From contig NZ_QMKQ01000027.1 in the NCBI RefSeq assembly GCF_003287975.1, positions 1 to 48,333 of the forward strand: 48,333 nucleotides of DNA, read 5' to 3'. Shown in pieces: positions 19,632 to 23,729 of the stretch. Every line of letters starts with the position of its first letter. The first letter of the stretch is position 1. Source of the stretch: Arthrobacter sp. AQ5-05. Lineage in GTDB: Bacteria; Actinomycetota; Actinomycetes; Actinomycetales; Micrococcaceae. The notes below the pieces were generated by a model. The model was not told the DNA's origin, ran no database searches, and saw only the letters and a list, made by a program, of their open reading frames with translations. The translations under genes and the position numbers were made by a program.

Positions 19632-20354
19632 GTTCCGAACCTAGTCGCGCGCGCAGCGGCCCACAAGGGTACTTTGTCCCCGCGGCGCACATTTGAGCCG
19701 GGGCCGAAGTGCCGCGGACAACGGGCGTCGTTTCCGAAAGCGGCTGCACTGAATCTCAGAACTCGTGTGCATCGCTGCGCCAAGGAAATTGAACGCCGCC
19801 CCAACCGGCAATCCTTCCCGTGCGCATATCGGTCTTGCGGACGGCGGAACGGGCCGCGCCCTGTTGGCACCGCTGAGGCCTGGCTCGGTGAAAGCCCTCT
19901 TCTGTGGCAACCCAAGGGAACGAAGGGCATTCATCTGGGAAGTCGCGTCCCGGCCATTGGAGGATACGTTTGCGTATGCGATCGGGAGTCCGGCCATGAA
20001 TTTGCGTGCAGCGTTTAGACTCCGCATCACCGGGCTTTTTCTCGGGCACGGTAGACGGGAATATGACGCCTGCGGAACCATGCAGTTTCGTAAAATTCCG
20101 AAGCCCTCTGCACGCGCTCCGGTGAACGACCGGATTACGGGACGCTCACAAGTGGAAAATCGGACAGGCCCCTTGCGGGACTGCGCCGATTTCGGCAGCA
20201 AAAGAATGGGTTCCTGATGGTAAGGGAACGGAAATACGCAATGGGCCGCTGCTGCAGGTCGTCCCTGGGCACCCCTGCTGGGGCGTTCTGTAGGCCAGCG
20301 AGCTCTGTTCCTTGGTGTACAACTCTTCCACCAGACCCTGGGAAATTTGAGGAT
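19632..20354. other. Gene-free region between ABC exporter and hairpin array
   Basis: About 720 bp with only overlapping shadow frames and no recognised protein. A hairpin with stem AAATCGG/CCGATTT lies near 20157-20192. Base composition falls towards the right, where the promoter of the hairpin array begins. Confidence 0.5.
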
Positions 20355-20383
20355 TTGATTTTCTCAGGAAGCACTACTATATT
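20355..20383 (+). promoter_or_regulatory. Sigma-70-type promoter for the hairpin array
   Basis: TTGATT (20355-20360) and TATATT (20378-20383) are separated by exactly 17 bp. This is the closest match to the housekeeping consensus that I noticed in the window. Transcription would begin near 20390 and run rightward through the seven hairpins. Confidence 0.65.
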
Positions 20384-20529
20384 TCTTGGCATGCGGGGAG
20401 AATAGCGATTTACCTCTCCCGATTGAGGAAGGTGCAGTTGCTTCCTTTTTGGGGGAAACCCGCACAGTGGTAACCGGCCGTCGGACAGCTTGAGACGGCC
20501 GCAGCAGTACAGCAGTAGCCGGAGGGCGT

Positions 20530-20742
20530 GGTCGTCGGACAGCTTGAGACGACCGCAGCAGTACAGCAGAACCAGCAACCCCGGCAATAAAGCAGTACCC
20601 GCAGTAAATGGCAGTACAGCAGTAGCCGGAGGGCGTGGTCGTCGGACAGCTTGAGACGACCGCAGCAGTACAGCAGAACCAGCAACCCCGGCAATAAAGC
20701 AGTACCCGCAGTAAATGCAGTACAGCAGTAGCCGGAGGGCGT
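20530..20742. repeat. Near-perfect tandem duplication within the array
   Basis: Two adjacent units of 107 and 106 bp differ by one G (the run near 20610 against 20717). Each contains one hairpin and its linker. The near-identity points to a recent duplication, so copy number may vary between strains. Confidence 0.85.
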
Positions 20743-21004
20743 GGTCGTCGGACAGCTTGAGACGACCGCAGCAGTACAGCAGTACCAGCAACCCCGGCAG
20801 TAAAGCAGTACCAGCAGTACCCGGTCGTCGGACAGCTTGAGACGACCGCAGCAATACCAGCAGTAGATCAGTAGAGCAGTACCCGGAGGGCGTGGTCGTC
20901 AGACAGCTTGAGACGACCACAGCAGTACCAGCAACACCGGTAGTACCTGCAGTACCGGGCCGTAGGACAGCTTGAGACGGCCACAATAGTAAAATAACCC
21001 CCAT

Positions 21005-21046
21005 GGGCGGGCTGGTAATGGATCTGTATTCATCACTAGCCCGCCC
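21005..21046 (+). terminator. Closing hairpin after the array
   Basis: GGGCGGGCTGGT (21005-21016) pairs with ACTAGCCCGCCC (21035-21046) with one G-T pair and an 18-nt loop. It lies 22 bp after the last array hairpin. The T-run downstream is weak (CCTTCCGTTCTT), so termination is likely but not certain. Confidence 0.55.
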
Positions 21047-21341
21047 CCTTCCGTTCTTGCCATAGTTTGCGTCGTTCACCGCAGGACCGGAGCTGACACT
21101 ACCCAAGAACCCACGCCAGGAGTTCTTCCGAACCTCTCGGCCTCCCACAGAGCGTTCCCCTTACGGACGCACCGGCGCAGCGCAGACGCCCTCTGCCACT
21201 CGGTGCAATCGCCTTCGAAAATTGGCGCCAGGCATGGGAAAGGGAATCGGGCGGTTTTCAAGAAGTCCGCGCACCTGCCGGGGCACTAATGTAGGCAGCG
21301 GGGGTTCCGGCGATGCGGGACCGGCGGCAAATGGAGAACTG

Positions 21342-23729
<2,388 letters not shown>

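Follow-up and report, generated by a model that had tools for sequence, protein, structure and literature searches.

A candidate new family of structured non-coding RNA with arrayed hairpins in Arthrobacter and related Micrococcaceae

The window is the whole stretch of DNA that was analysed, namely 48,333 nucleotides of Arthrobacter sp. AQ5-05 (contig NZ_QMKQ01000027.1). Comparison of sequences and predicted folds indicates that positions 20355-21046 of the window are one of several dispersed copies of a gene that specifies a structured non-coding RNA. The array gene is patchy in related bacteria. We put the probability that 20355-21046 is an RNA gene at about 0.93, and its family appears to be new, as it was found in neither Rfam 15 nor the literature searched. 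The first-pass annotation had proposed a candidate new non-coding RNA, and the parts shared with relatives together with the compensated stems support a structured, non-coding gene on the plus strand. The likeliest function judged from its design is that of a multivalent decoy, for which we see about an even chance, and a candidate partner was sought. Genomes (G), contigs (C), and loci (L) are given by our own handles where needed.

Architecture of the array in the window

The layout described by the first-pass annotation at 20355-21046 was confirmed. It consists of a promoter with 17-bp spacing, seven hairpin units of 25 nt, and a strong closing hairpin. A folded leader is also predicted between the promoter and hairpin 1, and the predicted RNA length is about 660 nt. 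The features are as follows.

20355..20360, plus strand: -35 hexamer TTGATT (TTGA promoter in 36 of 40 arrays or pieces)
20378..20383, plus strand: -10 hexamer TATATT (promoter scan and comparison of arrays)
20392..20464, plus strand: predicted leader domain with nested stems P1 (UGCGGG/CCCGCA), P2, and P3 (six single-sequence folds from both clades; within-clade alignments)
20476..20500, plus strand: hairpin 1, GGCCGUC-GGACAGCUUGA-GACGGCC
20530..20554, plus strand: hairpin 2, GGUCGUC-GGACAGCUUGA-GACGACC
20637..20661, plus strand: hairpin 3
20743..20767, plus strand: hairpin 4
20823..20847, plus strand: hairpin 5
20894..20918, plus strand: hairpin 6, loop AGACAGCUUGA
20958..20982, plus strand: hairpin 7, GGCCGUA/GACGGCC (stem variant in 9 of 164 units)
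20501..20957, plus strand: linker span with hairpins 2-6 inside, U-poor, with repeated CAGYA (CAGCA/CAGUA; count against shuffles)
21005..21046, plus strand: closing hairpin, probable terminator without a T run (arms 21005-21023 and 21028-21046)
20026..21142, no strand: strain-variable segment with the RNA gene inside (1081 bp of different sequence at this place in relative G006)

The seven hairpins have a common loop as had been reported, with GGACAGCTTGA in six of them and AGACAGCTTGA in the sixth unit. The reported exchange was also found, at stem pair 3, which is C-G in the first and last stems and T-A in the remaining stems. No other pair covaries within the window. In the last unit the innermost pair is lost as well, with A opposite G.

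The plus-strand fold of 20390-21060 beats 20 of 20 shuffles (z -6.2). The minus-strand fold likewise beats 20 of 20 shuffles (z -3.8), which is expected for hairpins. No Rfam 15 model matched the window or six relatives at the gathering score. At E up to 10 all matches were far below that score, the best being a snoRNA model on the minus strand of the closing hairpin with an E-value of 0.021. The literature search gave no report of such an RNA family, with subscription papers mostly outside its reach. A CRISPR array was considered and rejected, since a 107-nt stretch that includes a linker is repeated at 100% and the spacers are thus not unique.

The array is not a protein gene on the plus strand, as had been argued. 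The three frames hold 10, 6, and 11 stops over 20390-21046, and the spacing from unit to unit (54, 107, 106, 80, 71, and 64) differs by numbers that are not divisible by three. A protein gene on the minus strand, with one frame open across the array, is hardly credible. An open reading frame of 337 aa does lie on that strand at 20135-21148, and the frame is without a stop over 657 nt. However, its product is of low complexity, and its third-position GC is 0.57 compared with 0.84 and 0.90 in two ABC-exporter genes. The shifts in unit spacing and the compensated stem changes described below also speak against this reading, and in other arrays the open frames have other lengths and positions.

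The promoter TTGATT/TATATT with its spacer of 17, which had been predicted earlier, is the sole sigma-70-like match in 20020-21345. Shuffles of that stretch gave a mean of 0.4 matches compared with the one found. The promoter of the window is thus weak evidence by itself, and its conservation in relatives is the stronger point. A promoter with TTGA and TATATT was identified in 36 of the 40 arrays or pieces, and the spacer is 17 bp in all 36 in a search that allowed spacers of 16-18. Three of the four arrays without this promoter start at the edge of a DNA piece. The array on contig C5 of G012 (L106 8185-8349) has four units and a closing hairpin and lacks the usual promoter. We suggest that it may be a decaying or differently expressed copy.

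Loop, stems, and shared parts of the arrays

The loop GACAGCUUGA is conserved across 197 units while the number and spacing of the units vary among arrays. Each loop position is kept in 191 to 197 of the 197 units, which is an upper bound because the loop itself, with up to 2-3 changes allowed, served to find the units. Units with other loops were seen by eye in L164, L165, and L167. The loops of the 197 units are 10-11 nt long and the stems are 7 bp. Pair counts from this set lean to pairing, because a unit whose loop had changed had to form 6 of 7 pairs to be retained.

The main covariation test used 48 distinct exact-loop units (39 distinct stems) with no pairing filter and the better of two registers, and the counts were compared with shuffles that leave the relatedness of the units in place. 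There were 14 two-sided stem changes vs 4.4 in shuffles (0 of 2000 as high), and 90.5% of the stem cells were paired vs 85.9% (0 of 2000). Five of the seven stem pairs show two-sided change, with 2.4 expected (30 of 2000 shuffles). Extra pair types in the stems were not above the shuffles (12 vs 10.3; 282 of 2000). A selected alignment of 28 units (A2) gave eight two-sided cells vs 0.9 in shuffles (1 of 500). The units of A2 are 28 of 34 that were picked from 109 distinct ones, and some of the six left out pair less well. Its paired fraction of 98% is too high owing to this selection, compared with 90.5% in the unfiltered set. Two of the five measures of A2 are weak, namely the pairs with two-sided change (22 of 500 shuffles) and the further pair types (159 of 500). 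The same alignment slid by +3 columns scores 0.192 vs 0.219 in register. Another alignment (A3) had gaps inside stems, and its pairs were counted by script.

The first-pass annotation had proposed selection on RNA structure and had named uncompensated stem changes in relatives as evidence to the contrary. The stem changes in relatives are compensated, which upholds the proposal. When the stems are read on the plus strand, the non-Watson-Crick cells are of the G-U type in 30 cases and of the A-C type in nine (binomial p 0.001). The plus strand is taken to be the RNA because the wobble cells are G-U rather than A-C. These counts also bear on a function at the level of DNA, for example a cruciform array for recombination or protein binding. 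Palindromic tandem units in mobile surroundings would suit such a function, but the excess of G-U cells and the conservation of promoter and leader at the 5' end make it very improbable.

The leader folds as nested P1-P2-P3 in both clades. Six single-sequence folds agree on this, and they beat shuffles by only a moderate margin (z -1.8 to -4.0). The P1 stem reads UGCGGG/CCCGCA in Paeniglutamicibacter and AACGG/CCGUU in Arthrobacter, a between-clade change that was noted by eye. The within-clade alignments keep the leader fold with slight covariation. In the joint alignment of the leaders, the P1 arms of one clade are out of register with those of the other, and for this reason RNAalifold gave only three pairs there.

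The linkers are U-poor and rich in CAGYA, which was observed 625 times vs 119 in shuffles over 28 array sequences. Most Arthrobacter arrays also have a second hairpin type (type B), CCGUC-AAGCAGUAGGA-GACGG, with 36 units, and none was found in the Paeniglutamicibacter arrays in the same count. The type-B hairpins (loop AAGCAGUAGGA and variants) are interleaved with the main type in L098-L102, L113, L116, and L164-L171. Pairing of the loop ACAGCUU with AAGYAGU of the linkers or type-B loops (6 of 7 bases) was rejected, as it was judged by hand to be no better than chance.

The closing hairpin is larger than the units, as had been described, with arms of 19 nt that are 84% complementary. No T run follows it, and for that reason it falls outside what the scan accepts as a classic intrinsic terminator. 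The closing hairpin likewise varies with its pairing kept. Among 18 closing hairpins, which were chosen by hand among distinct ones, stem pair 8 is A-T, T-A, C-G, or T-G and stem pair 9 is A-T, G-C, or G-T. The closing-hairpin pattern matched 31 of the 40 arrays. Seven of the nine misses show a hairpin by eye and two are cut off.

Distribution, surroundings, and mobility

The covariance-model search of relatives that had been suggested earlier returned 18 of 395 Micrococcaceae genomes, the source genome included (E up to 1e-5). Two more arrays of the source genome lie on its contigs C37 and C25. The exact unit pattern is present in 13 of the 395 family genomes and the reversed control pattern in none. 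A covariance-model search at the order level with stricter filters (E up to 0.01) returned 27 of 396 genomes, and among these only the source genome and G154 have more than one match or exceed 28 bits. A search across 84,980 species gave 31 stretches with the exact pattern, and 22 of them are in Arthrobacter, Paeniglutamicibacter, Paenarthrobacter, or a Micrococcaceae bin. The nine single exact matches outside Micrococcaceae were rejected, as there is no second unit nearby and about 7-8 chance matches are expected by hand (257 Gb, both strands). A phage origin was also rejected, with no match in 50,697 phage records. Two single matches in viral contigs have no second unit within 300 nt and were likewise discarded.

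In the loci retrieved, a script identified 42 clusters of two or more units, and the removal of two antisense artefacts left 40 arrays or pieces. This is an upper count, since some pieces at the edge of a contig (ES3-54, ISL-85, and others) are possibly halves of one array, and two of the 40 (in G012) are one 99% duplicate. The copies are found on chromosomes and plasmids, with two Arthrobacter plasmids carrying an array, and several genomes have two or more copies.

The surroundings differ from copy to copy. A link to the ABC exporter or the UvrA-like gene that flank the array in the window was rejected, since the majority of the other copies lie among different genes and the close relative G006 has other sequence at this spot. 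In one relative, G004, the UvrA-like gene likewise stands next to the array. Across the 19 loci compared, no gene family recurs in all of the surroundings, and this points to an RNA that acts in trans. The most widespread neighbour outside the frames of the arrays is a resolvase family, which is found within about 8 kb at varying distance in six of the 19 loci. Pfam matches were obtained for 21 of 30 neighbour proteins, and these are exporters, UvrA-like proteins, a desaturase, transposases, resolvases, a Clp-type ATPase, HSP20, and others. Transposases or resolvases lie close to several copies. The relative G006 matches the flanks of the window locus at about 95% identity towards the UvrA-like gene and 93% towards the exporter, and 1081 bp of other sequence stand where the window has 20026-21142 (ends from the alignment). 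This 1081-bp sequence (L137, between the homologues of 20025 and 21143) has small frames that look like the monooxygenase type, by reading only.

Eight Arthrobacter copies have about 500 nt upstream in common (170 nt shorter in G106), with a sharp common left end. Five of these eight copies and G268 also have about 190 nt in common past the closing hairpin. The upstream flank is a conserved non-coding sequence in L098, L099, L104, L166, L169, L170, and L171, with the boundary GAACGCTCTGCGGGA and an identity of 72-92%. It is perhaps the end of a non-autonomous mobile element. The flank of the eight copies was rejected as a second structured RNA because only five of 99 predicted pairs show a two-sided change, and one copy of it had no Rfam match above chance. 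Two contigs of G012 (L105 and L107) share, at 99% identity, a 4.45-kb segment that bears an array, and the left end of this duplicate resembles IS21-type sequence by reading. The array on the two Arthrobacter plasmids (L116 and L117) adjoins, and is convergent with, a gene pair of umuD and a Y-family polymerase. A DNA-damage link via umuDC was set aside, since both plasmid copies and G335a look like one syntenic group and are probably one event.

These surroundings bear on the main alternative to a decoy, which is a selfish element that would use the RNA structure for its own spread. The repeats expand and contract, and a mobile unit could carry them without a host function. We regard a selfish or structural element, where the RNA serves its own mobility or a scaffold and has no host regulatory target, as unlikely but worth weighing. 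It would agree with the dispersed copies, the sharp left flank end common to eight Arthrobacter copies, the plasmid copies, the transposases and resolvases nearby (resolvase family in 6 of 19 loci), the 4.45-kb duplicate in G012, and the patchy presence in 18 of 395 genomes. However, the promoter, the loop, and the stem pairing are kept across genera, and a passenger would have no need of them unless the RNA itself aids transposition. There is also no mobility gene common to the copies, as even the most widespread one, the resolvase, varies in distance.

Proposed function, candidate partners, and known systems

We propose that the RNA is a multivalent decoy that would be made strongly and would present the same loop many times. 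It would titrate one trans-acting partner, either an RNA-binding protein or another RNA, off its normal targets, and the array length would set the decoy capacity. The proposal is based on the near-consensus promoter, the many copies of one loop, the lack of a common neighbour, and the free array length. The gene would spread within a small non-coding mobile unit or on plasmids. As it spreads between hosts, its partner would be expected to be present in them already.

A further step, which we put forward tentatively, is that of a self-contained mobile decoy RNA that would move between replicons of soil actinobacteria and titrate a conserved host regulator. The tandem array of one invariant loop would then use the number of hairpins as a dial, and the family would have a new partner. 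To our knowledge, no other sponge RNA family spreads as its own element. If the RNA is a decoy, the invariant loop would be a ready bait with which to fish out an RNA-binding regulator where the usual ones are missing: Hfq had no match in the 18 array genomes and CsrA had none in seven of them. Arrays of different length in related genomes would be a natural dose series, and the horizontal spread would show host regulation by a stand-alone mobile RNA. Complementary 11-mer sites of the loop were considered as a lead and rejected, since 4 of the 21 such sites in the source genome are outside arrays and about two are expected by hand.

CsrA was considered as the partner. The first-pass annotation had set it aside because actinobacteria generally lack CsrA, which is wrong for this genome, where a CsrA gene was identified at 71 bits. 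The gene is on the minus strand (G000:C30:26865-27017, which is L140 4866-5018), downstream of FlhA-like and FlhF-like genes by reading of the translations. With E up to 0.001 allowed, CsrA (PF02599) was found in 125 of the 395 Micrococcaceae genomes. A CsrB/RsmZ-like sponge with CsrA as its partner, the CsrA gene adjoining flagellar genes here, is nonetheless improbable. The source genome has CsrA, as do 11 of the 18 array genomes compared with 114 of the 377 others (Fisher p 0.009, uncorrected for kinship), and GGA totals 360 vs 241 in shuffles. On the other side, A(N)GGA is not enriched (142 vs 158 in shuffles, 28 array sequences), and GGA is present in only 142 of 197 loops even with the base before the loop counted, while GACAGCUUGA is kept without GGA. 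The loops of 10-11 nt on stems of 7 bp also speak against the CsrB type. Seven of the 18 array genomes (G004, G102, G242, G268, G312, G328, and G335) are without a CsrA match, with assembly completeness of 88% for G004 and 90% for G328. A recheck of G004, G312, and G335 at E up to 10 gave at best one match, with an E-value of 0.33. CsrA is a poor candidate because of these seven genomes and because A(N)GGA is not enriched.

An Hfq-binding decoy was considered as well. CrcZ is a decoy of this kind, and Hfq was found in none of the 18 array genomes at E up to 0.001, with five of 14 control genomes positive.

Rli55 and EutX are sponges for ANTAR proteins. We give little credence to a sponge of this kind here, in which an ANTAR-domain antiterminator would bind the loop core ACAGCU as an A1..G4 hexaloop. 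ANTAR proteins are present in 18 of 18 array genomes, which is weak support as the count covers array genomes alone. Of 197 loops, 196 keep the A at position 1 of the loop core and 195 keep the G at position 4. But the predicted fold of the window array has 11-nt loops and no hexaloop, and all loop positions are conserved without A1 and G4 being singled out. According to PMC8164766, ANTAR-target RNAs are dual stem-loops that have hexanucleotide loops with A1 and G4, and the linker is 2-25 nt, a range that the linkers here often exceed.

The array RNAs can be compared with four groups of known systems. ROOL, GOLLD, and OLE are large structured bacterial RNAs whose role is not established. The array RNA is likewise structured, and it differs in having no Rfam gathering match and in being a simple tandem array rather than a complex fold. 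The antitoxin RNAs of type III toxin-antitoxin systems, such as ToxI, are tandem repeats with a promoter and a terminator, are found on plasmids, and form pseudoknots. The arrays also are tandem repeats with a promoter and a closing hairpin and are found on plasmids, but they have hairpins in place of pseudoknots. No type III toxin was named among the 30 neighbour proteins scanned, which are part of the neighbours and include nine without a match.

The likeness to ANTAR-target RNAs consists of hosts that encode ANTAR proteins, hairpins in series, and an A and a G three positions apart in the loop (A1/G4). The arrays differ from them in lacking a predicted hexaloop, in having many units rather than two, and in linkers that are often too long. 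The sponge RNAs CsrB/CsrC and RsmX/Y/Z are described in a review (PMC7652899). Like these RNAs, the array RNA is predicted to be a stand-alone RNA with many hairpins and one repeated loop motif, and there is no gene common to its surroundings. Unlike CsrB and RsmZ, the arrays have the loop GACAGCUUGA instead of ANGGA, occur also where CsrA is missing (seven of the 18 array genomes), and are multi-copy, dispersed, and variable in length with a folded leader domain.
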